Shown here: positions 2 to 25,613 of the stretch, piece by piece
Numbering within the stretch: position 1 is the stretch's first letter
Layout of the letters: every line of letters starts with the position of its first letter
Source: a virus
Direction: 5' to 3' (one strand)
IMG/VR virus record: IMGVR_UViG_3300020160_000982
Location: 1-26,770 of that record
Length of the DNA stretch: 26,770 nucleotides
Made by a program: the position numbers and the translations under genes
Notes under the pieces: generated by a model
Seen by the model: only the letters and a program-made list of their open reading frames with translations
What the model was told of the DNA's origin: nothing
Database searches by the model: none

Positions 2-541
2 GAGTTTACATTTGGTTTAGGTAAACGATTACAATTAGATTTTTATTCACATACGGTTTATGATGGTGAAAATGGAGATAAGGAATTCAAATGGAGAGGA
101 TTCTCTTGGGAGTTCCGTTATGCTTTAGCCGACTGGGGTAAATTGTGGGGTAATCCGACGTTGTATTGGGAAACAAAAATGTTAGATGGTCGTTGGGGTA
201 TTGAACCAAAATTATTGTTAGGTGATAGAGTTGGTAAAAGAGGTATTTGGGGATTCAATGCAATTTACGAAGGTAACTTAGCAAAAACAAAAGAACTTCG
301 TGAAGATGAATACGCTTATACGGCATCATATGCTAACATCATCAATAACGATATAACTTTAGGTGTGTCACACATGTTTAGATACAACGATTACGAAGGA
401 GGTTCACAAGAATGGTATGTTGGACCACTTTTACAATATCGTTTCAACAACAAAGGTTATTTAAACATTGAGCATATGCCAGGTTTAAATAAAGACGCAA
501 AACAATCAAGAACTACAATTATATTCGCATGGAGATTTTAA
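2..541 (+). CDS. Outer-membrane beta-barrel protein, C-terminal part (5' end outside window)
   Basis: The frame is open from base 2, so this is the C-terminal ~179 residues of a longer protein. Throughout, short stretches of alternating polar and hydrophobic residues are separated by charged or Gly/Asn-rich turns, for example around RLQLDFYSH, NPTLYWETK, WGFNAIYEG and EWYVGPLLQYRF. The chain ends in TTIIFAWRF, with the terminal aromatic Phe typical of a last barrel strand recognised by BAM. The ALADWGK...GNPTLYWE...LLLGD pattern resembles, from memory, an uncharacterised bacterial outer-membrane family. The precise function is not recognised. It probably sits in the host outer membrane as a pore or receptor-like barrel. 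Its stop overlaps the start of the downstream permease by 13 bases, so the two are probably translated together. A TTG at 143 is an internal codon, not the start. Confidence 0.72.
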   Translation, partial: EFTFGLGKRLQLDFYSHTVYDGENGDKEFKWRGFSWEFRYALADWGKLWGNPTLYWETKMLDGRWGIEPKLLLGDRVGKRGIWGFNAIYEGNLAKTKELREDEYAYTASYANIINNDITLGVSHMFRYNDYEGGSQEWYVGPLLQYRFNNKGYLNIEHMPGLNKDAKQSRTTIIFAWRF

Positions 542-1536
542 TTAAAGGACAAGAATTTCTTGTATACTTAATATTCATTATGTTCGTAACAGGTATCCTT
601 AAAGAAAAAGGATACCTGATGGACATTTTTAGATTACTAGAACAAAAAGTTAAATCTAAAAAGATGGTAGTATTCTTAGTATCACTATTCGGTGGTATAC
701 TACCAATACCCGGTCGTGTTGCAATTTCAGCATCTATGTTGAATAGTATCGCACCTGTTGATAATAAGAAACGTAAGAAGTTTGGTATCATTGATTACCT
801 TGCAACACATCATTACTATCTATGGTCACCATTAGAGAAAACAGTTATTATTCCAATGGCTGTGTTAGGATTAACATACGTTCAATTCATGTCATATATC
901 TGGCCGTTATTATTAATATCGGGTTTATACATTACATACTATGTGGTATCATTAGATGATGATGAAATTGATATTGAAGTTAAAGACGAACCTATTAATG
1001 GTAAAAACATAATGCTGGTGGTTATACCATTTTTGGCAACGATAATGATGTGTGTATTCTTTACTAACTATTATTTTGGATTCTTTGGTGGATTTACATT
1101 ATGGTTGGTTTATTATTCAAATAGTTGGAAGAAGTTACTTGAATACATCAATTGGGAATTAATTTGGATTGTTGCAGCTGTTATTATCTTAGGTAATCTA
1201 ATAGGATCATATTCAAACCAAATAGAAGGTTATGTCAAACAATATAACAACCCACAATATCTATTGATTATTTGTGTATTGTCGTTCCTATCTTCATTCT
1301 TATTAGGTTCTTCAGCAAAATATGCAAGTATGGTAAGTTTATTAACATCTGTGTTTGGTTTACATTATTTTGTACTATTCTTTACTTTAGAATATGCGGG
1401 ATATCTAATATCACCATCACATAAATGTCTACCAATCGGTCAGAAGTATTTCCACACCGGATTTATGACCTACTTGAAGGCTTTAATTGTATGGATATCT
1501 ATTATGATTACTTATGCGTTATTGACAATAATTTAA
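529..1536 (+). CDS. DUF401-family integral membrane permease
   Basis: A 335-residue polytopic membrane protein with about 8-10 hydrophobic segments. Two signatures fit the DUF401 family, which belongs to the ion-transporter-like permeases: the GGILPIPGR segment near residues 55-63, and the late SPSHKCLPIGQKYF segment near 295-308, which matches the family's SPxHxCLxxxxxYF motif. The substrate is unknown; related permeases move organic anions across the inner membrane. The ATG lies inside the 3' end of the barrel gene (13-base overlap), which implies translational coupling and a shared role. Length is slightly below what I recall for cellular members (about 400). A permease of this type in a phage-like context is unusual. 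The family call rests on remembered motifs, not on a search. Confidence 0.72.
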   Translation: MEILIKGQEFLVYLIFIMFVTGILKEKGYLMDIFRLLEQKVKSKKMVVFLVSLFGGILPIPGRVAISASMLNSIAPVDNKKRKKFGIIDYLATHHYYLWSPLEKTVIIPMAVLGLTYVQFMSYIWPLLLISGLYITYYVVSLDDDEIDIEVKDEPINGKNIMLVVIPFLATIMMCVFFTNYYFGFFGGFTLWLVYYSNSWKKLLEYINWELIWIVAAVIILGNLIGSYSNQIEGYVKQYNNPQYLLIICVLSFLSSFLLGSSAKYASMVSLLTSVFGLHYFVLFFTLEYAGYLISPSHKCLPIGQKYFHTGFMTYLKALIVWISIMITYALLTII

Positions 1537-1586: not shown

Positions 1587-2060
1587 ATGGAAAAAAAGTT
1601 ATTAAAATTAGGTGAACACCTCCAATTAGAAAGTGAAATTAACGGGTATGTTGACCCAAATAGTGGAGAACAAGTATATGAAGGTTTTACCAAACAAAAC
1701 CTATCAATAATTTTAAAATATGAATTAGCTGAATTAGGAGAGACGTTATCTGCTGAAAGAAAACGAATCGAAATTCTAAGAGACGAGTTAATTAAAAAAC
1801 ATGGTGAAGCCGATGAAAAAGGTGGAATCATGGTTAAAATGTTCATCGAGGAAAAAGACGAAGAGGGAAATCTAATTTCAAGATTAATGAACCCAAAATA
1901 CGTTGAATTCGATAAAGAATATGGTACATTATTGGACCAAGAAAAAGAAGTGGAATATCCTGAAATTACAAAAGAGGATTTAAAGGAGGCGGGTAAATCA
2001 AAAGACAAATATCAGGTATTATTTAAATTAATAAAAGTAAAAGAAAAGGGACTAAATTAG
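1587..2060 (+). CDS. Phage DUF1617-like protein (tentative)
   Basis: A 157-residue soluble protein with a long charged helical segment around residues 45-75 (KYELAELGETL, then RKRIEILRDELIKKHG). An FDKEYGTLLDQEKEVEYPEI segment follows near 110-130. The order of helix, ELIKKxGE turn, a loop, then FNKE/FDKE...EVE.PxI resembles DUF1617, a small phage family of unknown function; this resemblance is from memory. The start is the ATG at 1587 after an A-rich leader with no Shine-Dalgarno motif. The last codons form the left arm of a bidirectional terminator shared with the convergent glycosyltransferase gene. It may be a virion or accessory protein, but no function can be read from the sequence. Confidence 0.55.
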   Translation: MEKKLLKLGEHLQLESEINGYVDPNSGEQVYEGFTKQNLSIILKYELAELGETLSAERKRIEILRDELIKKHGEADEKGGIMVKMFIEEKDEEGNLISRLMNPKYVEFDKEYGTLLDQEKEVEYPEITKEDLKEAGKSKDKYQVLFKLIKVKEKGLN

Positions 2061-2070
2061 TCCCTTTTTT
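2044..2070. terminator. Bidirectional intrinsic terminator between convergent genes
   Basis: A perfect 12-bp inverted repeat (left arm AAAAGGGACTAA at 2044-2055, right arm TTAGTCCCTTTT at 2057-2068) has an A-run on the left and a T-run on the right, so it can terminate transcription from either side. The stop codons of both flanking genes (TAG at 2058-2060 on plus, TAG at 2054-2052 on minus) lie inside the stem. Confidence 0.85.
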
Positions 2071-3164
2071 ATTTCTATTAACATATTACCTATTTGGTAT
2101 TCACCAGGTTCATAATAAGGTATTGATAACCTTATTTTATGTAATGTCATAATATCTTCATCTGTGAATGGTTCCACTTCGGTAATCATTACATCTACGG
2201 TGTCTGTCATCGTAAATTTAGACCTTAAATCATAACGAGTATTCTTCTGTTCATTATTGATATAATCCTCAGGAATCGTCCCTAAATCGATTTTATCGAA
2301 GAATATCTCTACCTCCATCAAACGATTTTTATTACGGGTGGTTAAACCCATTGTAAATGTCTTATATGTGAAGTTTTTTTCTTCCCAATACCTTAGTTCG
2401 TTAAACGCTCTAAACGGAACACCCCACTTTCTAACAAAGTTTCTATTTGATGCAATTTCATAAAGTAATCTTTTTTGTTTGTACTCATCACTAAACCTCG
2501 ATGTCTGCGAAACAAAATGATACACTATTGCACAATCACAAGTTTTTAATTCATACCCTTTTAGTTTCGCACGAATAAGAAAATCGTCATCCTCACAAAA
2601 AGCAGGAACAAATGTAAACCCATCAAATCCACCCACATCATCAAACATCTTCTTAAATCCTGACATAAAGAACACAGCACCATTGTATATGTTTTTACTA
2701 TCTTTCCATTGATTAACATATTCATTAAAATGATATTGGTCAAAATTATCAAAACTTGAACCTAAATCCATTAAAACTTTACCCGGTCTTTGGTGGTCTC
2801 TAAAAATTGGTGGTTCTATAGTTGTATAGGATAATAAAGTATTTGGATTTTCATCTAATAGTCTATCTAAATTTTCTAAGAAATTCTCACCGATAACCAT
2901 ATCATTGTGAATCAATACAAGTTTACTTGTATCAACTAATTTGATACCAGCATTGTAGTTTTCAGAGAATGTTAATCTATCATCATCATGAATAAAAGAA
3001 AGATTTTCATCATCTAATGAATCTAACCATTCTTTAGTACCATCACTAGAACCTCCACTACTAATTACTAACGGTGTAGTTGGGTAAATTTCACGTAAAT
3101 GTTTATAACATTCTTGTGTTAAATCTAACTTATTGTAAACTGCCAATACGAAACTTATATTCAT
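2052..3164 (-). CDS. Family 2 glycosyltransferase (GT-A fold) with extra C-terminal region
   Basis: A 370-residue protein with a GT2 nucleotide-sugar-binding start (ISFVLAVYN at 3-11, then SSGGSSDGT at 35-43). An HNDM motif at 86-89 takes the place of the DxD metal site, and EDDDF at 191-195 supplies the acidic catalytic-base region. About 120 C-terminal residues lie beyond the GT-A domain and look beta-rich, so this may be a second domain. It should transfer a sugar from a nucleotide donor; donor and acceptor cannot be inferred. It is the last gene of the minus-strand glycan block, ends in the shared terminator, and lies 19 bases downstream of an epimerase gene. Confidence 0.88.
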   Translation of the reverse strand: MNISFVLAVYNKLDLTQECYKHLREIYPTTPLVISSGGSSDGTKEWLDSLDDENLSFIHDDDRLTFSENYNAGIKLVDTSKLVLIHNDMVIGENFLENLDRLLDENPNTLLSYTTIEPPIFRDHQRPGKVLMDLGSSFDNFDQYHFNEYVNQWKDSKNIYNGAVFFMSGFKKMFDDVGGFDGFTFVPAFCEDDDFLIRAKLKGYELKTCDCAIVYHFVSQTSRFSDEYKQKRLLYEIASNRNFVRKWGVPFRAFNELRYWEEKNFTYKTFTMGLTTRNKNRLMEVEIFFDKIDLGTIPEDYINNEQKNTRYDLRSKFTMTDTVDVMITEVEPFTDEDIMTLHKIRLSIPYYEPGEYQIGNMLIEIKKGLI

Positions 3165-3183
3165 TTATTATTTTTTATTTAAA

Positions 3184-4176
3184 TTATTTTTTCCAAAAAC
3201 TATAAATTCCTTTTTCTACCTCATAGTTGACCCAAACAAATCTTTTACGACTTGGTTGTTTTTTTACCCATTCCCACATTTGAGATAACCCATCATACAA
3301 TGTTGTTTTATCTTCATAACCCAATAAATCAACAGATTTTTGCCAAGTCGGTACAGCATTTTTGACTTCATGTCTTTGTTCTTTATATACTGTTTGACCA
3401 TCTTTAATTACTTCTTTTAATGTTTCATTTGCCTCATTAATTGTGTGGTGACGTGTTCCACCTAAATTAATAATTTCTTTAGAACAATTTTCTTGTTGAG
3501 ATGATTTCCATAATGGTTCTAAACAATCATCAATGAAACTAAATGCTCTCTTTTGTTCACCATCACCAAAAATTGACATTGGTTCACCATTCATATGTTG
3601 GTACATCCATATACCTAATACATTACGATATTTGTCCCATATGTTCTGTTTAACACCATATACATTATGTGGTCTAATGATACACCAATCAAGTCCGTGC
3701 TGTTCGCCAGCAACCTTAATATCCATTTCACAAGCATATTTTGCAATACCATATGGATCAACAGGACAAGGTACTTGTATTTCATCAAATATATCCCCAT
3801 TACCATGACCATATACTGCCATTGTTGATGTAAAAACTAATCTTTTAATATCATGTTTAATACATTCATTTATAACACGTGACGTCGCTACTAAATTGTT
3901 TTGGTAATTATAACTTCTAATGAATGGTGATAACCCTTCAGCAGCGTATGCTGCCATATGATAAACGTAATCAAATTGATGTCTTTCAAAACATTCTGAA
4001 ATGTTACCATTAACCAAATTCATTTGCCACAACTCAACTTTTGAATTAACATTTTCAATATATCCACCACTTAAATCATCTATTCCAACAATTTGAACGT
4101 TTGGTTTATTTTCAATAATCCAATCTGATAATCTTGACCCGAGTAAACCAGCAACACCTGTAATCAGTATTTTCAT
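3184..4176 (-). CDS. NAD-dependent sugar epimerase/dehydratase (extended SDR)
   Basis: A 330-residue extended short-chain dehydrogenase/reductase. It shows the Rossmann motif GVAGLLG at residues 7-13, the active-site FTSTMAVYG segment at 115-123, and the catalytic YGIAK (YxxxK) at 142-146, followed by the family's RPHNVYG segment near 168. The length matches UDP-sugar 4-epimerases and NDP-sugar dehydratases. The exact substrate cannot be fixed from motifs. It probably remodels a nucleotide sugar for the surrounding glycosyltransferases. A 34-codon remnant closely resembling its N-terminus lies at 10072-10176. It sits 6 bases downstream of a GT2 gene and is probably co-transcribed with it. Confidence 0.92.
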   Translation of the reverse strand: MKILITGVAGLLGSRLSDWIIENKPNVQIVGIDDLSGGYIENVNSKVELWQMNLVNGNISECFERHQFDYVYHMAAYAAEGLSPFIRSYNYQNNLVATSRVINECIKHDIKRLVFTSTMAVYGHGNGDIFDEIQVPCPVDPYGIAKYACEMDIKVAGEQHGLDWCIIRPHNVYGVKQNIWDKYRNVLGIWMYQHMNGEPMSIFGDGEQKRAFSFIDDCLEPLWKSSQQENCSKEIINLGGTRHHTINEANETLKEVIKDGQTVYKEQRHEVKNAVPTWQKSVDLLGYEDKTTLYDGLSQMWEWVKKQPSRKRFVWVNYEVEKGIYSFWKK

Positions 4177-4182
4177 ATTATT

Positions 4183-4758
4183 TTAATTATGTATATAAAG
4201 AACTTTATTTATTTTTTTTATAGTTCCATGAGGGTATTTTAATAAGTATTCTTCAACAAATAAACCATCAGCGTCTCCTTTAGTAATGTTTATTTTTAAT
4301 TTATTTGAAAGTTGAGTTCTTGTCATAAAATTACCAATATCTATTGCACCTGCTATTGGTCTTGAATTAATAACTAAATATTGTTGTTGTGTCCAATTAT
4401 GTACCATATTACAATAAACAAAGTGAGTATTATCATCAACTTCATTTAAAAAATCTTGAACAAAAATTGGTACATAATAATTATCATCACCTGTCATCAC
4501 TACCCATTCTTCAGTTGCATTTTGTAATCCATAATTTCTAGCGGTGTGTCCCCAATCCATATGTGGACCATTTAATTCTGTAAATTTAATTCTTTCATCA
4601 TTTTCAAAATAATCTTTTACTTTTTGATATCCATCGTAAAATGCGTCAGCAACAACATGTATTTTCCAATTGGGTGATGTTTGGGAAAATATAGAACATA
4701 TCATACTCATTAATTGATGTGGTCTATTGTATGTTGGTATTACGAATTCTATCTTCAT
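4183..4758 (-). CDS. Small family 2 glycosyltransferase
   Basis: A 191-residue single-domain GT-A protein. It opens with IEFVIPTYNRP (3-13), the hallmark GT2 N-terminus, has HTARNYGL near 71-78 in the acceptor-side position, and carries TGDDN at 89-93 as the DxD metal-binding motif. It is shorter than most GT2 enzymes (often 250-350), so it is close to a minimal catalytic domain. It lies between two epimerase genes with spacers of 3 and 6 bases, which indicates one transcript. The sugar and acceptor are unknown. Confidence 0.87.
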   Translation of the reverse strand: MKIEFVIPTYNRPHQLMSMICSIFSQTSPNWKIHVVADAFYDGYQKVKDYFENDERIKFTELNGPHMDWGHTARNYGLQNATEEWVVMTGDDNYYVPIFVQDFLNEVDDNTHFVYCNMVHNWTQQQYLVINSRPIAGAIDIGNFMTRTQLSNKLKINITKGDADGLFVEEYLLKYPHGTIKKINKVLYIHN

Positions 4759-4761
4759 ATT

Positions 4762-5607
4762 TTATTTATTTAAATAGTTTTTAATGTAATCATCTATATT
4801 TTTAGTTGGTTGCCAGTCCAATATTAACTTTGCCAAATAACTTTCACATAGAGTTACTTGTGCTTCTCCTGGTTTATCTTCTGTAAAGATATATTCATGA
4901 TTAAACATTAAAGCAATATCCTTTATTGAAAAGTTTACCCCTCTACCCAATTCAAAAATATGACCCCAAGAGTTCTTTTCAAATATTCTTATTAATCCAT
5001 CAACAATATCGTCTATATGTGTGAAATCTCTTCTTTTAGTACCATCACCATAAATTGTTAGTGGTTCGTTATCTTCAATTGCTTTCTCCCATTTACCAAT
5101 CAATGTACAATATCCACCATCTTTTAAATGATATGGACCGTATACATTATAAAAACGAGCAATAGATGCATTTAATCCAAAGTGTTCTTGGTATAATGTA
5201 ACAATTTCTTCTCCCACATCTTTACTGAACGTATATGGATTTTTTAATTTACCACTATGATGTGAACTACTACCAGCATAAACCAAAGGTACATTATTCT
5301 TATAACAATAGTTAACAACATTTAATGTACCATTCGCATTAGTTTCAAAGTACTCTACGGGTTGTTTAAACGATGGCTGTATCCTCGCAATTGCCGCAAG
5401 ATGATAAACCATATCAAAAGTACCATAAACGTTGTAGTGTTTAATTTCTCTAACATCACCATTTATATATTTTGCACCTTCTTGGTGATTACTTTCAAAT
5501 CCCGTGTAGTAATTATCGATTGAGGTTACACTATGACCTTCATCAATTAATCGTTTAATAAGGTTTGCACCTACAAATCCCGCACCTCCTGTAACTAGTA
5601 CATTCAT
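4762..5607 (-). CDS. NAD-dependent sugar epimerase/dehydratase (extended SDR), second copy
   Basis: A 281-residue SDR protein with GGAGFVG at residues 7-13, an Asp at the end of beta-2 (IDNYYTG near 30-36), the AGSSSHH active-site strand at 111-117, and the YTFSK catalytic YxxxK at 125-129. RFYNVYGP near 165 is the typical epimerase substrate-side motif. It is similar in class to the epimerase at 3184-4176 but clearly diverged and shorter. Related enzymes include UDP-GlcNAc/UDP-Glc 4-epimerases and GDP-mannose dehydratase relatives; which reaction it does cannot be decided here. Close spacing to both neighbours places it in the glycan transcript. Confidence 0.92.
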   Translation of the reverse strand: MNVLVTGGAGFVGANLIKRLIDEGHSVTSIDNYYTGFESNHQEGAKYINGDVREIKHYNVYGTFDMVYHLAAIARIQPSFKQPVEYFETNANGTLNVVNYCYKNNVPLVYAGSSSHHSGKLKNPYTFSKDVGEEIVTLYQEHFGLNASIARFYNVYGPYHLKDGGYCTLIGKWEKAIEDNEPLTIYGDGTKRRDFTHIDDIVDGLIRIFEKNSWGHIFELGRGVNFSIKDIALMFNHEYIFTEDKPGEAQVTLCESYLAKLILDWQPTKNIDDYIKNYLNK

Positions 5608-5611
5608 AATT

Positions 5612-6379
5612 TTAAATTAATTTGTAATATTCTAAACCATTATTCTCACTACTGATATTTGAACTTTGTGTTCCTGAAATATATCCCCTTTCACCCTCAA
5701 CACAAAACTCAGAAACTCTATAAAATTTTGATTCGGGAAAGACTTTTATTTTATTTTCACTAATAAAATTCATTAGTGGATAAACGGTATTATTCCAATC
5801 GTTAACTTGTTGAACATCCCGATTACCAAACTTCTCACCGACTCTTGTTAACTTAACCATTGATAAATCAAATTTACCCCCAATCTTTTCAATGATAGAT
5901 TTTTTAAAAAATTCACAAGAACCTCTTAACATACCAATTGGTGCACCAATACTATTGGTCCATATTTCCCAATCATTAAATGATTGATGTTCAATAATCT
6001 TTTTAAACCAATTGTTTTTAAGAATTAGATTATCGTCATGTGTAAATAACATTAACTCATAATCTTTATAATCATAATCATCGAGCCATTGATTAGAACA
6101 TCCCCAATCACCAACAGTATTTGGATATTCTTTATATACCCAACCAAGGTCTTCAATTTCTTTTATTGATGCAATTTTGGAATAAAGTTTTTGGTCTAAA
6201 TGTTTTCTATCCCCTCTTAAAACAACATCTTTTTTTTCTATTTCAGAATATTGTGGGTCTCTGTGTGAAACACAAAACATATCCATTGACCAATCATTTG
6301 GAAGTATTTGTGTTGATATGTTTTCATAAAAATGTAATGGGAAATGCCAACCTGAACAGACTACTGCAATTTTTTTCAT
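5612..6379 (-). CDS. Probable glycosyltransferase-like protein (HDDN motif)
   Basis: A 255-residue protein that starts MKKIAVVCSGWHFP, typical of a Rossmann or GT-A first strand. ELMLFTHDDNLIL at 108-120 resembles the strand and DxD loop of GT-A enzymes, and WTNSIGAPIGMLRGSCEFFKK follows in the position of the acceptor-domain loop. No full GT2 signature is present, so the family is not certain. Its start overlaps the stop of the upstream methyltransferase gene as ATGA (6376-6379), a classic coupled junction. It probably transfers or modifies a sugar within the island. Confidence 0.6.
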   Translation of the reverse strand: MKKIAVVCSGWHFPLHFYENISTQILPNDWSMDMFCVSHRDPQYSEIEKKDVVLRGDRKHLDQKLYSKIASIKEIEDLGWVYKEYPNTVGDWGCSNQWLDDYDYKDYELMLFTHDDNLILKNNWFKKIIEHQSFNDWEIWTNSIGAPIGMLRGSCEFFKKSIIEKIGGKFDLSMVKLTRVGEKFGNRDVQQVNDWNNTVYPLMNFISENKIKVFPESKFYRVSEFCVEGERGYISGTQSSNISSENNGLEYYKLI

Positions 6380-6933
6380 AATAATACTTTTGATACTGAT
6401 GGAAAACTTTCATTTAAAACAACATAATTTATTTCTTCTTTTATTGAGTTTATTGGTGTCTTATTATATTTTAACATCCACTCAATATTATCCCTTTCTT
6501 CAGTCCCACCTTCAAAAATCATAGTCGAACCACCCTCAATTTTAGATTTTACACGATTAAAAACATCGGTTATTGTTTTACCATCATTTGATATATCTAA
6601 ATGTAATAAATCAAAATCCTCAACAACCCAATCATTTATATTCATTTGTTTTAATTCAATAAAATCAAGTAATGAATATTCATTAATAAATGATTTTGTT
6701 TTTTCAATTGTTGAATGTTTGTATGGGTACGAGTCCCATAAATCATAACAAATAATTTTACCACCTTCACCTATTTCATGTAATGCCATTGCCATACTAA
6801 TTGCGGAATAGCCATTCAATGTACCAAACTCAATTATTTTTCTTGGTTTTAATTCTAAAACTAAATCATATAATGTTTGACCTATATTATTTTCGTTGTA
6901 AGAACTCTCAACATTTGGATTTTTATAATTCAT
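6376..6933 (-). CDS. SAM-dependent methyltransferase (class I, Methyltransf_24-like)
   Basis: A 185-residue Rossmann methyltransferase. Motif I is IEFGTLNGYS at 34-43 and the motif II strand is IICYDLWDSYP near 63-73. The following LLHLDISNDGKT segment takes the place of the usual VYIDGDHxY motif, and GGSTMIFEGGTE comes after it. Loss of the usual IDGxH metal or catalytic residues means activity may differ from its neighbours. Such enzymes commonly O-methylate sugars or their substituents. It is coupled by ATGA to the downstream gene and lies one base from the aminotransferase gene. Confidence 0.78.
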   Translation of the reverse strand: MNYKNPNVESSYNENNIGQTLYDLVLELKPRKIIEFGTLNGYSAISMAMALHEIGEGGKIICYDLWDSYPYKHSTIEKTKSFINEYSLLDFIELKQMNINDWVVEDFDLLHLDISNDGKTITDVFNRVKSKIEGGSTMIFEGGTEERDNIEWMLKYNKTPINSIKEEINYVVLNESFPSVSKVLL

Positions 6934-6934
6934 A

Positions 6935-8119
6935 TTACCAGCCTTTTTTTATACAATCTACAATATATTCTCTATCTTCTTTAGACACCCACCAACCAAC
7001 AGGTATTGATGATACTTTTTTAATGGTACCATCTAAATTTGGTAATATACTTTTATATTCTCTAACACAAGAATGAATATCATTTCTTTCATGTACTTGA
7101 GATGTTGCAATACCTTTCTCAGACATATATCTTTGGAAGTTATCTCTATCCTCAACGAGAATACTATAAATCCAAAATGAAGATTCCATATCTTTATTCC
7201 TTTCTAATAACTCTATACCGTTTACATTCTTTAATTCTTTATCATAGAATTTTGCATTATCCTTATGTTTACCGGTTATCTCGTCAACGTGTTTAAAATT
7301 TTCATTACCAATTGATGCGTTTATATCATTCATATGAAATTTAAATCCCCATTCTGATATGTCAGATTCACATCTAAAATCTTTTCTATTACCGTCTCTA
7401 TCAATACCGTACCATCTTAACAATTTGGCTCTTTTATATAAATCATCATGAGGTAAAAATAATAAACCACCATCTCCGGAAGTGATATGTTTTATGGCTT
7501 GTAAACTAAATGTACAAATATTACCATGTGTTCCAATGTATTTGTTTTTATACTTACTACCCATTGCATGTGCACAATCCTCAATAATTGCGGGTTTAAA
7601 TCCATATAACCTATATGATTGCTCTTGTATTTGTTTTAATTTATCCAAATCAATAGGATAACCACCCCAATGAACAATAAAAATTACTTTTGTTTTTGGT
7701 GTTATTTTTCTGGCTAAGTCGTCCAAATCCATATTTAATGTTTTTGGATCAACATCCACCCATTTAATATTAAAATTATTTGCCAATATCGGCCAATTAG
7801 TTGCGGTACATGTTAATGGAGTTGTTAAAACCTCGTCACCAATTTCAATACCCGGCCAAGTTGATTCATATTGTCCATATCCATCGATACCCTTTAAAAA
7901 TTTATTGGGTTTTTTTAAAAGATGTAAGGCTAAATGTTCGGCAGATGTTGCAGAATTTAATGATACAAGTTTATCGTGTCTAAAATACTGTTTTAAATTC
8001 TCTTCAAAATTTTCAACAACTGGTCCTTGACCTATGAAGCCACTTTTTAATACTTCAGATACTTTTTCAGTAACAGAATCTGACATAAAGACCTTGAATA
8101 AAGGGATATTATTTTTCAT
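6935..8119 (-). CDS. DegT/DnrJ/EryC1/StrS-type PLP sugar aminotransferase
   Basis: A 394-residue fold-type I PLP enzyme. It has SGFIGQGPVVENFE at 26-39 and the SATSAEHLAL phosphate-cup region at 56-65. The PLP-binding Asp is in IIEDCAHAMGS at 178-188, and the Schiff-base Lys is at residue 210 in SLQAIKHITSGDGG. These are the full set of DegT-family signatures, and the length is normal. It transfers an amino group to a keto-sugar nucleotide, consistent with a dehydratase-type SDR supplying the substrate. This implies that the glycan contains an amino sugar. A 42-base spacer separates it from the upstream gene, one of the larger gaps in the block. Confidence 0.94.
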   Translation of the reverse strand: MKNNIPLFKVFMSDSVTEKVSEVLKSGFIGQGPVVENFEENLKQYFRHDKLVSLNSATSAEHLALHLLKKPNKFLKGIDGYGQYESTWPGIEIGDEVLTTPLTCTATNWPILANNFNIKWVDVDPKTLNMDLDDLARKITPKTKVIFIVHWGGYPIDLDKLKQIQEQSYRLYGFKPAIIEDCAHAMGSKYKNKYIGTHGNICTFSLQAIKHITSGDGGLLFLPHDDLYKRAKLLRWYGIDRDGNRKDFRCESDISEWGFKFHMNDINASIGNENFKHVDEITGKHKDNAKFYDKELKNVNGIELLERNKDMESSFWIYSILVEDRDNFQRYMSEKGIATSQVHERNDIHSCVREYKSILPNLDGTIKKVSSIPVGWWVSKEDREYIVDCIKKGW

Positions 8120-8161
8120 TTTTTTATTTTAATTTAATTAATTTTTTTTAGATTATCAAGT

Positions 8162-8758
8162 TCAAAAAACATATTCCCAATTGAATCTTAGACGTTTTGT
8201 GGGTTCAGTTCCTTTCTTTCTTATTAGTTCTAAATTGTGATTACTATCTCTTACACCCTCACTTGAACTCTCTTCCGCATATACTTTAGCTTTGATATGT
8301 CTTAGTTCATGAACTTCAAGTAATTTAGAACATTTGTTGTAAAAATGAATGTCATCATAACCGTAGTTACCACAGAAGTCTTCATCGTATCCACCTATTT
8401 TCTCAAAATCATCTTTATGAATAACATATATGTTTACACTATTAGTGTCTTCTCTACCCAAATAATAAACACAACCCTTTCTTAAGTTAGTATTCATTAA
8501 TTGTTCCATATTTTCTTTAGTAACAAGATGGTCAATATCCGCACAAAGAACCCAACCCTCACATATATGAAATCCTAAATTTCTTGCACCTGGTTGATTC
8601 CACTTAATATCGTCGGTTATTCTTGCCACTCTAATACCATCTATAGAACCTAAAGGTTCCTTTGAACAATCGTCTATTATAACTGTCTTTAATCCTTGAT
8701 TAATAATACCTTGGATTCTTTCTCTTTGACCGAAATAGGTGTATAGTACTGTTATCAT
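8162..8758 (-). CDS. Glycosyltransferase, GT2/galactosyltransferase-like
   Basis: A 198-residue GT-A protein. VIIDDCSKEP near 26-35 is the nucleotide-binding strand, KWNQPGARNLG at 52-62 the donor loop, and DIDH at 74-77 the DxD metal site. A later GGYDEDFCGNYGYDDIHF segment matches the GG(W/Y)xxEDxDF-like acceptor motif of GT2, GT7 and GT27 enzymes. It is a compact catalytic domain without transmembrane helix, so cytoplasmic. The stop of this gene and the start of the aminotransferase gene are 42 bases apart. The upstream methyltransferase gene ends one base before its ATG. Confidence 0.85.
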   Translation of the reverse strand: MITVLYTYFGQRERIQGIINQGLKTVIIDDCSKEPLGSIDGIRVARITDDIKWNQPGARNLGFHICEGWVLCADIDHLVTKENMEQLMNTNLRKGCVYYLGREDTNSVNIYVIHKDDFEKIGGYDEDFCGNYGYDDIHFYNKCSKLLEVHELRHIKAKVYAEESSSEGVRDSNHNLELIRKKGTEPTKRLRFNWEYVF

Positions 8759-8759
8759 A

Positions 8760-9299
8760 TTATAATTTTTTTATCCAACTAGTGTCACAAAATGTAGAAT
8801 CAATTGTTTCAAATTTTTCATCTACTGCTTTCATAACCCCCACCCATCCTGGGTTATAATCGTGACCACCAATAAATCCATTTTTGTTAATTTGTGGTAG
8901 ATAGTTGTCAATATCTTTTATGACCTGTTCATATGTGTGCCAACCATCTATATAAACAAAATCAAATGAAACGTCCTTTAATTTAAGAATGGCATCATCT
9001 GATGTTGAATTAATGTATTCTATATTTTCTTTATTGTTTATCCTTTTATTAAATTTATCAATGACCATTTCAAAATCACTACTGGATGCACTATCATTAT
9101 CATTATCGTATCCATTTACATGTGGGTCAATTGTAATGACCTTTTTAAAATGTTCTGCAAAAATTTCAGTTCCCTCACCAGCATACGAACCAATTTCAAC
9201 CATTGTCATTTCTGATGTTGATTGGAATTGGTTTATGTAATTTATTAAATCTTTTAACCCATTAGTGTATAATTCGGGTCTCATTGTTATTAATGACAT
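8760..9299 (-). CDS. SAM-dependent O-methyltransferase (Methyltransf_24-like)
   Basis: A 179-residue class I methyltransferase with motif I VEIGSYAGEGT at 34-44, ITIDPH at 55-60 (ribose-binding acid), and FVYIDGWHTYE at 114-124, the IDGxHxY signature of Methyltransf_24. NGFIGGHDYN follows near 139-148, with a second His/Asp pair often used for metal or catalysis. Likely target is a sugar hydroxyl or a substituent of one. It lies one base from each neighbouring gene, so it is co-translated within the island. Confidence 0.86.
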   Translation of the reverse strand: MSLITMRPELYTNGLKDLINYINQFQSTSEMTMVEIGSYAGEGTEIFAEHFKKVITIDPHVNGYDNDNDSASSSDFEMVIDKFNKRINNKENIEYINSTSDDAILKLKDVSFDFVYIDGWHTYEQVIKDIDNYLPQINKNGFIGGHDYNPGWVGVMKAVDEKFETIDSTFCDTSWIKKL

Positions 9300-9300
9300 G

Positions 9301-10002
9301 TTAATACTTTAAGTGCCTTCCCTGGTCAACAAAATATTCATTGTCTTCTTGTTCACCTTGCAAGGTAAACTTATTTGCATAACCCCTTAATTTTTTTATC
9401 TTTAATTTCTTTTCCATTCTCCATAAACAAAATGGAAAACTAATCTGGTCTCTAGAACTAAATTTGGTGATTTGTTCCCACCACATTAATTGCAGTTCTT
9501 TAACTGCATGTGTTGTTTTAACAATAAATGTACACATTTCATAAAGACCATATCTATCTGGCATTCTTAATGACTTGTATAATGTGAATTGGTTTTGAAG
9601 ATTATCATGGATATCTAAATTCCATTGAGCACATGCGGTCATTTCTTGATATAAACATTTTCTATCTGGATGTTTAAATAAGAACACATCAGCATCATCA
9701 CCATACTCGTCAATGATTAATTGGGGGTCTTTTTTTAATTGGTGATTACCATCTTCCCATATAATATACTCATATTGTGGAAACATTAATGAAGATAGAA
9801 TTTTATAGGTCTTAGCTTCTCTTCTATTTTTATAATCATCTATTGTTGAGAATTTTAATATATCTCTTTGTTCCCAAACATTTACGTCATCTTCTTTTTT
9901 ATCCACATATGCAATATAATCACAATTTTTAAAAACCACGGGGGGATCAATCAACTTATCCTTTCCGTCTGTGATTGCGGTTATAACTAAAAACTTCTTC
10001 AT
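9301..10002 (-). CDS. TOD1/MUCI70-like glycosyltransferase (DUF616)
   Basis: A 233-residue protein showing the motif order of the TOD1/MUCI70 (DUF616) glycosyltransferase-like domain: RREAKTYKIL at 60-69, YIIWEDGNHQL at 79-89 with the acidic DxN metal site, and the signature SSRDQISFPFCLW at 182-194. In plants this domain acts in pectin and sphingolipid-related glycosylation, and bacterial and viral members are mostly uncharacterised. It should be a cytoplasmic sugar transferase here. It is the first gene downstream of an otherwise gene-poor gap (10003-10179) that holds an epimerase remnant. Confidence 0.78.
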   Translation of the reverse strand: MKKFLVITAITDGKDKLIDPPVVFKNCDYIAYVDKKEDDVNVWEQRDILKFSTIDDYKNRREAKTYKILSSLMFPQYEYIIWEDGNHQLKKDPQLIIDEYGDDADVFLFKHPDRKCLYQEMTACAQWNLDIHDNLQNQFTLYKSLRMPDRYGLYEMCTFIVKTTHAVKELQLMWWEQITKFSSRDQISFPFCLWRMEKKLKIKKLRGYANKFTLQGEQEDNEYFVDQGRHLKY

Positions 10003-10179
10003 ATGATATAATATAAACTATTTTTTTATAATTATGAAATTTCTTTATTATTAAATTTAAAGTGTTCTAAATTATATTATTGTTAAAAACATATGAACAT
10101 TGGTATGATTTTCAATAATGTAATCGGATAATCTTGAACCCAATAAACCGGCAACCCCTGTTATTAATATTTTCATATT
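10003..10179. other. Gene-poor gap in the glycan island
   Basis: This 177-base AT-rich spacer is the longest interruption in the island. Apart from the epimerase remnant at 10072-10176, I see no complete gene, hairpin terminator or convincing promoter. It is best read as a scar from a deletion or recombination event that removed most of a third epimerase gene. Confidence 0.55.
10072..10176 (-). pseudogene. Truncated N-terminal remnant of an SDR sugar epimerase
   Basis: An ATG at 10176 opens a 34-codon frame whose first ~27 residues (MKILITGVAGLLGSRLSDYI, then IENHTNV) are nearly the same as the N-terminus of the epimerase at 3184-4176 (which reads SDWI, then IENKPNV). The Rossmann GxxGxxG is intact. 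Similarity ends after the NV at residues 26-27, and a stop follows after seven unrelated residues. The nucleotide sequence differs from the intact copy at many third positions, so this is an old duplicate or the rest of a deleted sibling gene. The ATG, its upstream TATAAAATATGAAA-like leader and the position at the start of a cassette are preserved. Confidence 0.85.
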
Positions 10180-10722
10180 TTAAAATTTATAAATTACTAA
10201 CACATCATCAACTCTATTTTTTATGTGTCTATTATCAATTATTTCTACATTATTATGTAATTCTTTGTACCTATCAATTGTTGAATCTAAATTATTTACG
10301 TCCTCAATAATATAGATACCATTAGATTTCATTTTATTTTTTAATACATTAAAAGAATTTATTTGGTCATTAATAAAATGACTCCCATCATCAATTATAA
10401 CATCAAATGTTAAATCATTTAAATGTTTTAGTATGTTTTCTGAACAAGCATCCCCAATAATAATATTATACTTATTTTCTGCAATTAAATCTTTAATGTA
10501 TTGATCCGTAATATCAACCCCATACACCTTGGAATTAATAAAATATTCGTCCCACATTTTTAAAGATTCACCTTTACAAATACCAATTTCTAAAACTGTG
10601 GAATTTTCTCTATAGTCATTTAATAATTTTTCATATTCATTAATGTAACTATGTGCGGTTCCCTTGTCTCCGTGACCCTCTGGTGATTGGTAATCTAAAT
10701 ATATTTCACTTAATGATTTCAT
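10180..10722 (-). CDS. SAM-dependent methyltransferase, MycE/TylF-like sugar O-methyltransferase class
   Basis: A 180-residue class I methyltransferase. An N-terminal GHGDKGTAHSYINEY segment (16-30) matches the (D)KGTxHSY signature of macrolide-sugar O-methyltransferases such as the MycE type. Motif I is VLEIGICKGESL at 43-54. The ribose-binding acid is in YGVDIT near 67-72. DVIIDDGSH at 107-115 carries the metal-binding DD and His of that class. Its stop directly precedes the epimerase remnant. Its start overlaps the upstream methyltransferase stop as ATGA. It may act on a deoxy or amino sugar made by the aminotransferase route, which is inference. Confidence 0.84.
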   Translation of the reverse strand: MKSLSEIYLDYQSPEGHGDKGTAHSYINEYEKLLNDYRENSTVLEIGICKGESLKMWDEYFINSKVYGVDITDQYIKDLIAENKYNIIIGDACSENILKHLNDLTFDVIIDDGSHFINDQINSFNVLKNKMKSNGIYIIEDVNNLDSTIDRYKELHNNVEIIDNRHIKNRVDDVLVIYKF

Positions 10723-11330
10723 ATTTTATAATAATTTTCTTTTAAATCTGTTTCATTTGTAAAGTTTATTTTTTTCATAATGACCTGATAACCGGTATGT
10801 ATTATATCTAAATATTTGTGATAACCGTGGTAAAATGCGTCCGCTCCCGTTTTTACTTGTAGATATTGTTCTTGTTCAAGTCCACCACCAAAGTCATCAA
10901 ATATAATATAACCATTATTTTTCAAACAGTAAAATGCATTTACCGCGTCTTCTAAAACATATTTGGACATATGATTACCATCAATATAAACAAAGTCCAA
11001 AAATTCTTTTGTTTTATTGTCATGTTGAAAAGTTTTAAAACTATCGGCTGACTCACCTAAAATATATGTGACCTTATCTTTATATGGATTGATATTATTT
11101 TCAATATATTCATTAGTATTGATGTCCATAATATAGTGATGTGAACCATCCATTTTACAAAAGTTTTCTAATATGTAAAGAGATGAACCACCATACAATG
11201 CGCCAATTTCTAATGTTATATTAGGTTTAGTTTTTAAGTGACCTAAAAAGTCTTCCCATAAATCTATATGGTCTTTAAAGAATATCCTTTCGTCAGGATA
11301 TTTGAAATGTTCTGGGTATTGATATGTCAT
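10719..11330 (-). CDS. SAM-dependent O-methyltransferase (Methyltransf_24-like)
   Basis: A 203-residue class I methyltransferase with EIGALYGGSS (motif I, 41-50), IMDIN (67-71), DFVYIDGNHMSKYV (112-125) and YIIFDDFGGG (141-150). The IDGxH plus DD combination is typical of metal-assisted O-methyltransferases of the Methyltransf_24/CmcI type. It is coupled on both sides by ATGA overlaps, at 10719-10722 and 11327-11330, so three genes here form one translational unit. It is diverged from the other methyltransferases of the island. A sugar or sugar-linked acceptor is likely from context. Confidence 0.85.
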   Translation of the reverse strand: MTYQYPEHFKYPDERIFFKDHIDLWEDFLGHLKTKPNITLEIGALYGGSSLYILENFCKMDGSHHYIMDINTNEYIENNINPYKDKVTYILGESADSFKTFQHDNKTKEFLDFVYIDGNHMSKYVLEDAVNAFYCLKNNGYIIFDDFGGGLEQEQYLQVKTGADAFYHGYHKYLDIIHTGYQVIMKKINFTNETDLKENYYKI

Positions 11331-11950
11331 ATTGATTGATAATAATTGTTTTGTTTTTCTTGACGTTCTATCGTCTTATGGTGTTGAATACAATAATCAT
11401 CCTCATCGGTTGGTAACGATGAGAATTTCTGACCACCTAAAATTCTTTCGTGAACCTTACCATACCAACTCATTCCTTTCTTATAAATTCTTCCCTGCGC
11501 ATCGGGATAATTAACCCACCCTTTTTCGTTAACCCTCCAACCCCATTTTTTAATATGATCTTCGGTTAATCCGTCAACAGTATTAATTCTTGGGACAAAT
11601 ATTAAATCTACACCTGGATTCATTTCCAGTATTGTTGATAAATTTTGTACCATGTACTCACTAATCATTTCATCCGCATCAATTTGATAAATGTAATCAC
11701 CGGTACAATAACCGTTTAATATGTTTTTAAAGTCTGAGAAATTATTGTTCCAATCAAAACATCTCCATGTTTGTACATTAGGTAATTTATTATATGGTAA
11801 TAAAAAATCTAATACTTTGGGATTACCATTTGTTTCATCATACAGAATCACAATCTCGTCTTGAGCTCTCTTGTGTTTCAGTATGAATGGAACTATATTC
11901 TTGATTTCCTCCAACTCGTTGCAAACTGTTATCGCAAAACTTATCTTCAT
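11327..11950 (-). CDS. Family 2 glycosyltransferase
   Basis: A GT-A protein of 207 residues if started at the ATG at 11950 (MKISFAITVCNELEEI, the canonical GT2 opening). An in-frame ATG at 11968 would add six lysine-rich residues. It carries a DADE metal motif (residues 91-94 from 11950) preceded by GDYIYQI, and a WYGKVHERI acceptor-side segment near 160-170. Its N-terminus overlaps a small zinc-ribbon-like frame upstream in another frame, and the junction contains a run of nine A. It is coupled by ATGA to the downstream methyltransferase. It should be cytoplasmic; donor and acceptor are unknown. Confidence 0.87.
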   Translation of the reverse strand: MKISFAITVCNELEEIKNIVPFILKHKRAQDEIVILYDETNGNPKVLDFLLPYNKLPNVQTWRCFDWNNNFSDFKNILNGYCTGDYIYQIDADEMISEYMVQNLSTILEMNPGVDLIFVPRINTVDGLTEDHIKKWGWRVNEKGWVNYPDAQGRIYKKGMSWYGKVHERILGGQKFSSLPTDEDDYCIQHHKTIERQEKQNNYYQSI

Positions 11951-12041
11951 ATTTTTTTTTATTTTCATTTATTGTTAACTCTTCACATTTCCAACACCAT
12001 TCTTTATCGTCGGTGTCCCATGTATGTCTATCACATTTCAT
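11838..12041 (-). CDS. Small zinc-knuckle-like protein overlapping the glycosyltransferase start
   Basis: A 67-codon frame whose first ~33 residues look like a real protein: CxxH at residues 3-6 and CxxC at 16-19 (MKCDRHTW, then WCWKCEE) form a likely zinc knuckle, followed by a Lys/Glu-rich tail. Its ATG overlaps the stop of the upstream gene as ATGA (12038-12041), which supports translation. The remaining ~34 codons run inside the glycosyltransferase gene in another frame and look uninformative. The ancestral gene may have ended before the glycosyltransferase start, or a shift of one base at the A9 tract may fuse the two. A nucleic-acid or protein-binding role is possible but not shown. Confidence 0.6.
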   Translation of the reverse strand: MKCDRHTWDTDDKEWCWKCEELTINENKKKYEDKFCDNSLQRVGGNQEYSSIHTETQESSRRDCDSV

Positions 12042-12274
12042 GCTCTATTTCCTCCTATATTCATCCATCTATTAAAGTAATCCAAGTTATCACCACCATT
12101 TATTCTTCTTGTTAATTGACTTACTATTTCATTATCAATTTCATCAGAAATTCTTTGAGACAATAATCTTGTCAACCCCTCCTCAATATTATATCTTCGT
12201 GGTTGAATGTGATTAGTTTCAAATACGAATGTATCTTTAATAATCCCATCAAAAAATATAAATTTTCTTATCAT
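12038..12274 (-). CDS. Small phage-type protein of unknown function
   Basis: A 78-residue protein with no recognised family. A beta-like N-terminus (KFIFFDGIIKDTFVFETN) is followed by a helical, charge-alternating segment (IEEGLTRLLSQRISDEIDNE, 30-49) and a RRINGGDNLDYFNRWM stretch. It is coupled on both sides by ATGA overlaps with the zinc-knuckle frame and the 84-residue gene. That is convincing evidence that all three are expressed, even though they interrupt a run of sugar-modifying genes. A virion-assembly role would fit the amphipathic helix but is only a guess. Confidence 0.65.
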   Translation of the reverse strand: MIRKFIFFDGIIKDTFVFETNHIQPRRYNIEEGLTRLLSQRISDEIDNEIVSQLTRRINGGDNLDYFNRWMNIGGNRA

Positions 12275-12525
12275 ACAATTTCTCTTGCGAATAGTTTAAA
12301 TTCTTTACCATTATTGTTGAATGCAATGTTAGCATCAGTTGTTGGGTTTAAACGAATACTACATTCATTTGGTCCTGTTGCAAACACTACAGGTTCATCA
12401 TCACCAAACTGAAAACAAAACTCAACATTCTCCGGATTAAATCTACGTCTATTTAATGTTAATAATTGGGTTGGTTCCAATTGTAAGAACATATTATTAT
12501 TCCCCTGAAAAAATTTAAAATTCAT
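12271..12525 (-). CDS. Small beta-rich protein of unknown function
   Basis: An 84-residue protein with alternating hydrophobic strands (MFLQLEPTQLLTL, VEFCFQFGDDEPVVFAT, ECSIRLNPTTDANIAF, KEFKLFAREIV), which suggests a small beta-sandwich or beta-barrel. No known family is recognised and no signal peptide is present. Its stop overlaps the start of the next gene as ATGA, and its ATG shares one base with the stop of the large GT4 gene upstream. It may be a capsid-decoration or adaptor-like phage protein, or an accessory factor of the glycosyltransferases. Confidence 0.65.
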   Translation of the reverse strand: MNFKFFQGNNNMFLQLEPTQLLTLNRRRFNPENVEFCFQFGDDEPVVFATGPNECSIRLNPTTDANIAFNNNGKEFKLFAREIV

Positions 12526-13772
12526 TATTTTATTTTGGTTAATTTGGGTAAAACTAATTTAGCTTCTTGAGGTGTAGAAGAAAAAGGATTGATAATCGAT
12601 TTAAATTTTTCTTTCATTTTTTCCAAACTAAATTTACTTTTATTTTCATCTTTTAATTGGATTGATTTCTTTAAAAACCCATCATAATCTTTTATAACTA
12701 ATTTTAAAACCTCAACAAATTCATTGTAATTTGCTGTAAACCATTTTGAATCTTTAATTATAAAAGTATCAACCGCACTATTATGAACCTCGGTTAATTT
12801 TCCACCTAACATAATTGCTTTATCCATTGGTAAAAAATCTTTATGTCCCGACCAATTGGATGCAATTACTGGTTTACCCGTCATTGTAAATTCTAATAAA
12901 GGTCTACCAAACCCTTCTCCTTTGGTTAACGTAACCATTGCCTTTATTTTCGAATGATTATATAATCTATTCATTTCTTCATTAGATAAATCACCAAACA
13001 AAAGATAGATAGGTGGTGGATTTTCAATCTCACCAACAATAGATTCTATCTTTTTTCTAAATGATTCTCTTTCTTTAACCGAAAAAGTGGCCGAAGATGT
13101 CTTTAATACTAATGCTGGTGGTGTCTCCTCACCTTTGAATGATTCCACAAAACATTTTATTAACATACCAATATCTTTTCTATCTTGACCAATGTCACCT
13201 TTTAACCAATGACCAACAAAAAGATATGCAAAATCTTCTTTAATGTCGATATCTAAACCCTCAGCACTATCGTTGTAAATAGACGTATCAACACCCTCAA
13301 ACAAAACTTCTATCGGACTCTCAATTTTATGTTGTTTGACCAATTTACCTGTGTTTTGTTCATTCTCATTGTAAACAGTTGTCAATAAAACATCCTTAGA
13401 GAATGTTGATGTTGTGATAATTAAATCCATTCTGTTACAACCATCAATCCAATCTTTAGGTGCAATAGTTGTTTCAATACCCGCAGTTATTCCAATATTA
13501 AATTTACCAACTCTTTTAAATTCATTTGGAACAGTTACTTGAACATAAATGTCGGGTGTTTTATTTAATTGACTAACAACATTACCTTCAATCCATTTAT
13601 GAAATAGATTATCTTCTAATGCTGTTAATGGAGTTGATCCCCAAGCACAACTATCAATTTTAATATCAAACATATCCATCTCATATAATGCTTGTAATAA
13701 ATCTCTTGAGTGTGCACCGTATCCACTTCTTGTTTTAACGGGTCCCCTGAATAGTAAAAATGGTTTGCTCAT
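12525..13772 (-). CDS. Family 4 (group 1, GT-B) glycosyltransferase
   Basis: A 415-residue GT-B retaining-type glycosyltransferase. The N-terminal GPVKTRSGYGAHSRDLL (10-26) is the glycine-rich acceptor-side loop. The C-terminal donor domain carries KGEGFGRPLLEFTMTGKPVI (284-303), the classic E-x7-E region of GT4 enzymes, followed by ASNWSGHKDFL. The protein is full length for the family. It has no membrane segment and is probably cytoplasmic. It lies one base from the following GT4 gene, so the two likely act on the same chain. Confidence 0.92.
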   Translation of the reverse strand: MSKPFLLFRGPVKTRSGYGAHSRDLLQALYEMDMFDIKIDSCAWGSTPLTALEDNLFHKWIEGNVVSQLNKTPDIYVQVTVPNEFKRVGKFNIGITAGIETTIAPKDWIDGCNRMDLIITTSTFSKDVLLTTVYNENEQNTGKLVKQHKIESPIEVLFEGVDTSIYNDSAEGLDIDIKEDFAYLFVGHWLKGDIGQDRKDIGMLIKCFVESFKGEETPPALVLKTSSATFSVKERESFRKKIESIVGEIENPPPIYLLFGDLSNEEMNRLYNHSKIKAMVTLTKGEGFGRPLLEFTMTGKPVIASNWSGHKDFLPMDKAIMLGGKLTEVHNSAVDTFIIKDSKWFTANYNEFVEVLKLVIKDYDGFLKKSIQLKDENKSKFSLEKMKEKFKSIINPFSSTPQEAKLVLPKLTKIK

Positions 13773-13773
13773 A

Positions 13774-17408: not shown

Positions 17409-17777
17409 ATGGAAAATAAAGATAGAAGTGTTTTATTAATAGGTGCAATTGTGTCCCTATTTGGTGTATTAGTTTCGTTAATGTATTTTAACGATAAACC
17501 TGATGTTGTAATTACAACAAACATTTGCAAGGAAGATTCATTACAAAACGTTATTAACGAATTACAAATGGATTTGAAAATGCAATCAGATGGATTTGAT
17601 GACAAAGAAAATAGATACGAGGAAATTTTATTTGAATATCAATGGGGGATAGATTACTTAAAAGATTATCAACCCGAAGCATATAGAGAGTTCCATAGAA
17701 TTTTATCACATAAAGAAAAATTCAATAGAAAAGACGAACAAGAAAATATAAAAAGATTAGAAACACCAAAATGGTAA
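17409..17777 (+). CDS. Membrane-anchored helical protein, paralogue of the gene at 24215
   Basis: A 122-residue protein with one N-terminal membrane helix (VLLIGAIVSLFGVLVSLMYF, ~8-27) and then a long charged helical region. The C-terminal pattern RYEEILFEYQ...QPEAYREFHRIL parallels RYEMALEMY...NPEAVEEIELIL in the 94-residue protein at 24215-24499, which has the same one-helix architecture. The two are probably paralogues. The topology (membrane anchor plus extended periplasmic or cytoplasmic helix) resembles spanin-like or scaffold proteins, but no family is recognised. It overlaps the start of thyA by 7 bases. Confidence 0.65.
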   Translation: MENKDRSVLLIGAIVSLFGVLVSLMYFNDKPDVVITTNICKEDSLQNVINELQMDLKMQSDGFDDKENRYEEILFEYQWGIDYLKDYQPEAYREFHRILSHKEKFNRKDEQENIKRLETPKW

Positions 17778-21193: not shown

Positions 21194-21207
21194 CTACACA
21201 ATCTGAG

Positions 21208-21238
21208 TAAATCCATATATATTTTGTATATGGATTTA
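21208..21238 (+). promoter_or_regulatory. Inverted repeat covering the start of the second PcfJ-like gene
   Basis: A perfect 12-bp inverted repeat (TAAATCCATATA at 21208-21219 and TATATGGATTTA at 21227-21238, 7-base spacer) places the ATG at 21230-21232 inside the right arm. In RNA this would fold a hairpin that hides the start codon. No T-run follows, so it is not a terminator. It could be a translational switch or a protein-binding operator. Confidence 0.6.
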
Positions 21239-25202: not shown

Positions 25203-25613
25203 ATGGCATATTCAGATAAGGTCTTGGACCACTATTCAAATCCTAAAAACGTAGGGACATTAGACAAATCCAAATCAAATGTAGGTACTGGATTGGTTGG
25301 AGCACCCGAGTGTGGAGATGTAATGAGATTACAGATTGAGGTTATTGATAATATCATTATTGATGCTAAGTTCAAAACCTTTGGATGTGGTTCCGCAATT
25401 GCTTCTTCTTCAGTCGCAACTGAATGGTTGAAAGGTAAATCGTTAGATGAGGCAGTCACAATCGATAACATGGATTTAGTTGAGGAGTTAAACCTTCCGC
25501 CAGTTAAGATACATTGTAGTGTCTTAGCAGAAGATGCAATTAAATCCGCAATAAATGATTATCGTGTTAAAAATGGTATGGAAGAAATAAAATTTGAAGA
25601 ACATTTAAGTTAA
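25203..25613 (+). CDS. iscU: IscU-type Fe-S cluster scaffold protein
   Basis: A 136-residue protein of normal IscU length, on which [2Fe-2S] clusters are built before delivery to apo-proteins. The three scaffold cysteines are present: Cys 37 in GAPECGDVM with the Asp 39 that destabilises the bound cluster, Cys 62 in TFGCGSAIASSS, and Cys 105 in KIHCSVLAEDA with the preceding His 104. LPPVK at 98-102 is the HscA chaperone recognition motif. All catalytic residues are intact, so it should be active. No iscS or hscA/hscB is in the window, so sulfur and chaperones would come from the host. Its TAA overlaps the iscA-type ATG (TAATG). Confidence 0.95.
   Translation: MAYSDKVLDHYSNPKNVGTLDKSKSNVGTGLVGAPECGDVMRLQIEVIDNIIIDAKFKTFGCGSAIASSSVATEWLKGKSLDEAVTIDNMDLVEELNLPPVKIHCSVLAEDAIKSAINDYRVKNGMEEIKFEEHLS

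Follow-up and report, generated by a model that had tools for sequence, protein, structure and literature searches.

An overlapping gene pair at the contig edge

The IMG/VR virus contig IMGVR_UViG_3300020160_000982, whose full 26,770 bases form the window analysed here, begins with two genes, the first encoding the end of a predicted outer-membrane (OM) beta-barrel and the second a DUF401 permease (Table 1). The barrel reading frame, in frame 2, runs from the contig edge, where its 5' end is missing, to 541, and its translation ends in ...RTTIIFAWRF*. To judge from complete relatives, the missing part would comprise a signal peptide, a TonB-box-like tail, a mini-plug segment, and the start of the barrel. 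The permease reading frame begins with ATGGAGATTTTAA within the last codons of the barrel gene. The original prediction described the two proteins as fused by a 13-base overlap; the overlap is borne out by the sequence, but the proteins are encoded by two overlapping reading frames. The same 13-nt overlap recurs in almost all loci with a small barrel 5' of the permease.

Table 1. Features of the barrel and permease genes, with positions in the window
Feature	Position	Strand	Remarks
C-terminal 179 aa of predicted 12-stranded OM barrel	2..541	+	5' part beyond contig edge; 93% identical to residues 116-294 of relative L070
C-terminal F-A-W-R-F of last barrel strand, terminal-Phe OM signature	524..538	+	Read from translation
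13-nt overlap of barrel stop and permease start	529..541	+	Sequence ATGGAGATTTTAA
DUF401 permease, 335 aa, multi-helix, predicted inner-membrane protein	529..1536	+	Pfam DUF401, phrog_14035
PIPGR motif of permease	703..717	+	P59, G62, R63 invariant in 13 diverse viral permeases
THHYYLWSPLEK motif of permease	805..840	+	H94, H95, Y96, Y97, W99, S100, P101, L102, E103 invariant in 13 diverse viral permeases
SPSHKCL motif of permease	1411..1431	+	S295, P296, H298, K299, C300 invariant in 13 diverse viral permeases

The assignment of the second protein to the DUF401 permeases, with PIPGR and SPSHKCL-like motifs, was confirmed. It matches Pfam DUF401 (PF04165) over residues 11-332 with 43.4 bits against a curated cut-off of 24 (E 3.8e-11), and phrog_14035, which has no assigned function, with E 4.6e-81. 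Its score against CitMHS (28.5 bits) is below the cut-off of 31.9 and indicates weak kinship, while the 60 bits against TIGR00529 are far below that model's cut-off of 378. Most PIPGR and SPSHKC residues are invariant across permeases down to 32-40% identity, and dN/dS values of 0.03-0.11 point to strong purifying selection. The permease of one related contig (L057/L140) has an internal deletion of ~75 residues beside an intact barrel. Compared with the known DUF401/TIGR00529 permeases (the cyanophage copies and AF0261), the window's protein passes the DUF401 cut-off and is 36-38% identical to the cyanophage copies, which among annotated phages are found in nine records only, including S-H25, metaG-MbCM1, S-CAM4, and ACG-2014j. 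Unlike the window's permease, these copies stand in genomes without a barrel relative. A search of annotated phages for the barrel found none. The suggestion that neither protein is standard phage cargo has to be qualified for the permease. The open-access literature yielded nothing on DUF401 in phages.

The gene that follows the permease (1587-2060) is common to 44 of the 49 related permease loci with enough sequence, and the glycosyltransferase after it is present in 47 of them, which rules out a chimeric start of the contig, including its first 1.5 kb. Farther along, the minus strand at 2052-15132 carries a long series of glycosyltransferases, NDP-sugar epimerases, and SAM methyltransferases with a DegT-like aminotransferase (all recognised by eye), which looks like a phage glycan-building cluster. 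The plus strand encodes a thymidylate synthase (17771-18874) of 367 aa against a 266-position model, with the ~100 extra residues present as insertions, and, at 19325-22618, a PcfJ-like protein (PF14284, E 2.8e-12) with another gene of similar appearance after it. It also encodes, at 25203-25945, a NifU-like scaffold (PF01592, E 1e-49) and then an IscA/HesB-like gene called by eye, which together make up a phage-borne pair for Fe-S cluster assembly. A gp23 capsid gene of T4 type is present in several larger relatives, and L189 has a terminase and a tail-sheath-like gene. A Shine-Dalgarno core is absent from all 32 gene starts of the window, and the signal peptides of this group end in SFGQ or SYGQ. 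Both features are usual in Bacteroidota, so the host of the phage is probably a member of this group.

The barrel family and its TonB-box-like tail

The cut barrel of the window matched no family in Pfam or PHROG, and the full-length protein is represented by relatives such as that of L070 (294 aa). Scans of viral contigs for the barrel recovered 47 loci and then 80. Complete viral barrels are about 285-310 aa long. A signal peptide, recognised by eye (...TTTMSFGQYSS), is followed by ~35-45 residues of tail, a short conserved region (GPYGQPLWTTMRMFxSTRVYVMNPPGT-MYEKWFD), and the barrel itself, and almost all of these proteins end in W-R-F or a close variant. The call of a beta-barrel with a terminal Phe, made by eye in the original prediction, agrees with an AlphaFold2 model of a full-length relative that is 93% identical in the part covered by the window. 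This model, built on 50 viral and cellular rows, has 12 strands at a mean pLDDT of 91. In the model the tail is disordered and is the sole unstructured part, residues 37-69 before the first strand are ordered, and ~35 residues lie between the TonB-box-like motif and that strand. The barrel is under strong purifying selection, with dN/dS of 0.04-0.11.

The closest solved fold is FapF (PDB 5o65; Z 22.9, rmsd 2.6 over 221 residues), followed by a COG4313 channel (PDB 4rl8; Z 20.9, rmsd 2.8 over 213 residues), with autotransporter and KdgM barrels ranking lower at Z 18 or less. In FapF (PMC5557850) and in the COG4313 channels (PMC4493636), an N-terminal segment is inserted into a barrel of 12 strands and closes it. 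The alignment with FapF, at 14% identity, starts at model residue 36, and it thus takes in the ordered segment ahead of the barrel and includes the FapF plug region. However, FapF works in export, has a long coiled coil in the periplasm, and belongs to a fap operon, and a TonB box is unreported for it, whereas the phage barrel has a mature tail of ~35 residues, mostly unstructured, before the segment, and no fap-like neighbours were seen at the loci examined. With the COG4313/Phenol_MetA_deg channel Pput2725, the phage protein shares a 12-stranded barrel and an N-terminal segment before or in the lumen. Phage barrels score 16.5-17.8 bits or nothing against PF13557 (Phenol_MetA_deg), below the cut-off of 22, whereas cellular relatives score above it (31.5 and 25.0 bits). 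The COG4313 paper proposes passive, lateral uptake of hydrophobics and leaves TonB unmentioned (PMC4493636). Among viral folds, the best matches to the barrel were porin-like proteins with TM of 0.45-0.5. The full barrel matched no PHROG and no phage adhesin or tail family, and the complete small barrel has no match to the Pfam plug domain (PF07715). Sequence searches of the PDB returned nothing for the barrel, the permease, or the receptor-like protein described below.

The disordered tail has a single motif that is conserved, L-x-[E]-[VI]-x-V-[TE]-A, which appears in viral barrels as LQEIVVTA, LDEVVVTA, LKEVVVTA, or LNEVVVTA. Of 14 diverse viral barrels, 13 show a looser pattern, [D/E/Q..]-[VI]-x-V-[TES]-[AG], where shuffled tails would lead one to expect 0.46. 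Known receptors have TonB boxes of this form (DTLVVTA in BtuB and DTIVVTA in FepA). At the level of the motif, the viral tail carries a TonB-box-like sequence near the mature N-terminus, although a match to a motif as short as a TonB box is weak evidence for TonB binding.

Independent support for a TonB box comes from the neighbours of cellular relatives. A scan of bacterial genome contigs found 42 of these, mostly in Planctomycetota, Verrucomicrobiota, Lentisphaerota, and Myxococcota-like bins, at 25-43% identity with one exception at 56%. Among the 37 that were checked, 11 directly adjoin, on either side, a gene with a TonB C-terminal domain, and Pfam TonB_C confirmed six of these 11 neighbours (E 1e-10 to 8e-27). 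With few tonB genes among the several thousand of a bacterial genome, chance adjacency would by our estimate be expected in far fewer than one of 37 loci. The tails of cellular relatives also contain TonB-box-like text, such as LPPIVVTG and LPAVVVEG. The barrels at the loci beside tonB (L206, L207, L209, L217, L198, L224, and others), 12-stranded and with a TonB-box-like tail, form an as yet undescribed protein family in bacteria. One relative with such a tonB neighbour is that of Chthoniobacter flavus. A wide profile detected distant relatives in seven of 395 Bacteroidota genomes, without a TonB-box tail where this part was read, except in L194.

In nine viral loci, the slot of the small barrel is occupied by a protein of 590-600 aa (L029 4197-5999 and L236-L245). 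It has a near-identical signal sequence, the motif ELKEVVVV, and sequence of the kind typical for TonB-receptor plugs. The protein has no direct Pfam match, while a profile of the nine sequences matches certain Bacteroidota ORFs in their plug region, and Pfam assigns these ORFs to Plug and TonB_dep_Rec. An AlphaFold model, made from nine close rows only, reached a pLDDT of 25. The exchange between the small barrel and the receptor-like protein looks as if recombination had taken place within the signal region.

Linkage and origin of the pair

In each of the 62 viral permease loci that were fetched, the gene directly upstream encodes a predicted OM protein, which is the small barrel in 53 (two of them only 40% identical) and the TonB-receptor-like protein in the other nine. 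From the side of the barrel, the permease is beside or near it in 77 of 80 viral loci. It is directly downstream in 71, directly upstream, with the order swapped, in four, and ~2.3 kb downstream with another gene between in two, while a fifth case of swapped order (L110) came from the first barrel scan. Three barrel loci are without a permease, one of them on a 119-kb contig. In L165, where it is missing, the barrel gene is followed by a gene (8823-9245) for a protein of 141 aa that starts like a signal peptide and may be a further small barrel. Larger records have one copy each of barrel and permease. The viral loci are mutually related, so these counts do not represent independent events, and linkage is better supported by the rearrangements and by the replacement of one OM protein with another than by the counts. 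In the swapped and separated loci, the permease is ~32-43% identical to that of the window, and linkage persists overall with permeases only 32-55% identical. The idea that phages keep barrel and permease together is strongly supported by this co-occurrence.

Other genes are found near the pair in some relatives. A tryptophan-halogenase-like gene (PF04820, E 1.8e-111) is located just upstream of a divergent barrel-permease pair (L003 3219-4739). A TIM-barrel-like and Methyltransf_24 protein (phrog_1458; L070 3793-5492, L110 3096-4724, L112 5925-7505) adjoins the pair in most relatives, and was considered as a third partner. This protein is widespread in cyanophages, with 123 records against nine for the permease, and is unlinked to the permease in S-CAM4; we rejected it as part of the cyanophage backbone. 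It is fused in cyanophages and proteobacterial-looking phages, and split into two genes in the relatives of the window.

A copied host operon was rejected as the source of the pair. Across 25 bacterial genomes with the barrel, DUF401 was matched once, in part, and among 296 Bacteroidota the cut-off was passed by three matches, all partial. No permease was found in the flanks of cellular barrels, which were fetched to a length of up to 8 kb. A profile of viral permeases searched against 193 genomes of one phylum gave no match and no clue to the substrate, a result that shows little as the search had no positive control. Taken with the cyanophage permeases that have no barrel, the near-absence of DUF401 from bacteria and the lack of a permease beside cellular barrels make the combination look virus-assembled rather than taken from a host operon. 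Since cyanophage permeases occur without a barrel and cellular barrels without DUF401, neither part needs the other everywhere.

A proposed uptake line and its alternatives

We propose, with a probability of about 0.58, that the two genes form a virus-borne uptake line, in which a TonB-gated OM pore and an inner-membrane carrier import one solute. The infected cell, probably a member of the Bacteroidota, would carry the small barrel in its outer membrane, where the barrel's ordered N-terminal segment of ~30 residues would close the lumen and the flexible tail before this segment would hold the TonB box. Host TonB would bind the box, and the proton motive force would drive the segment aside, allowing the solute to enter the periplasm. 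The DUF401 permease, as a CitMHS-like carrier, would then move the same solute from periplasm to cytoplasm and so feed phage replication. In some phages, the TonB-dependent-receptor-like protein would replace the small barrel, with the permease remaining the same. The original prediction of a route across both membranes is favoured by the linkage of OM barrel and permease, but a passive path between two pores is not; the TonB-box-like tail and the receptor-like replacement, which lie left of the contig edge or in relatives, indicate that the route is probably TonB-energised. As for the solute, the hydrophobics proposed for COG4313 channels, the weak likeness to CitMHS, and the Fe-S assembly genes of the phage suggest carboxylates, aromatic acids, or an iron chelate as candidates, no more.

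The pair might instead serve in receptor masking or superinfection exclusion, with the barrel filling the outer membrane or occupying host TonB, thereby blocking competing phages or TonB-dependent toxins, and the permease doing a separate job. Phages are known to block TonB-dependent receptors, as T5 Llp does with FhuA (PMC9586334), and several relatives have the pair close to genes of the adsorption region, tail-fibre-like ones among them. An arms race over surface proteins would likewise lead to the exchange of two different OM proteins in one slot. Masking leaves unexplained, however, why an OM protein is kept with the permease in nearly all barrel loci and across swapped orders, and the cellular relatives beside tonB point to a housekeeping role in transport. 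The uniformly low dN/dS gives, on average, no sign of diversifying surface loops, and we consider this explanation unlikely. Mere synteny, with two independent metabolic genes held together only by the conserved gene order of related T4-like phages, would fit the many loci that are close relatives, the conservation of neighbouring backbone genes, and the cyanophages with a permease alone. It seems rather improbable to us, as it would not preserve the pair through swapped order, gene insertion, and a receptor-like replacement in the same slot.

The fold by itself would leave the direction of transport unsettled, since its FapF relative is an exporter. Permease and barrel could serve to export a compound or peptide made by phage or host, in the way that FapF secretes amyloid subunits, a possibility favoured by the closeness of this polypeptide secretion pore and by the methyltransferase/TIM-barrel protein encoded nearby. 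The barrel is without the FapF-type coiled coil, however, and the nearby protein belongs, as noted, to the general cyanophage backbone. The TonB-receptor-like replacement belongs to an import class, and to our knowledge all TonB systems described so far work inward. We give export very little credence.

The proposed uptake line has a partial counterpart in the classical TonB-dependent transporters (BtuB, FhuA, FepA, and SusC), which likewise combine a signal peptide, a TonB-box-like motif, and an OM beta-barrel. The tonB neighbours of cellular relatives and the receptor-like protein that replaces the barrel in nine phage loci add to this likeness. Those transporters, however, have 22 strands and a plug domain, against 12 strands, ~30 ordered residues, and no Pfam plug in the small barrel, which most likely works like a TonB-dependent transporter yet stands outside that family. 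Among phages, the marine megaphage Mar_Mega_1 encodes a SusC-like TonB-dependent receptor proposed as an uptake gene (PMC9723777). That gene is likewise a phage-borne OM uptake gene of TonB type, but it is a single gene for a classical receptor without an inner-membrane partner, whereas here a 12-stranded barrel is paired with a permease. The open-access literature that was searched contained nothing on a 12-stranded barrel with a TonB box or on a phage pair for two membranes. A phage-borne TonB receptor thus has one published precedent, while the barrel-permease pairing and this class of barrel appear undescribed.

Single phage transport genes are known, and a pair serving both Gram-negative membranes is not described in the literature searched. 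More tentatively, at somewhat less than even odds, the barrel may represent a second architecture of TonB-gated OM transporter, a COG4313-type pore of 12 strands with a mini-plug of ~30 residues, which would be present beside tonB in Planctomycetota, Verrucomicrobiota, and other bacteria and would have been recruited by large phages, together with an inner-membrane carrier of their own, as a full trans-envelope uptake line. TonB gating of the barrel would show that TonB-driven transport can do without 22 strands and a full plug domain, and the bacterial members of the family beside tonB make such gating directly testable. The presence of a pore and a transporter side by side in large aquatic bacterial viruses suggests that the virus installs its own nutrient intake during takeover of the cell. 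If this is true, infected cells would take up a solute that is closed to their uninfected neighbours, with a bearing on virus-steered nutrient flow in lakes and coastal water.
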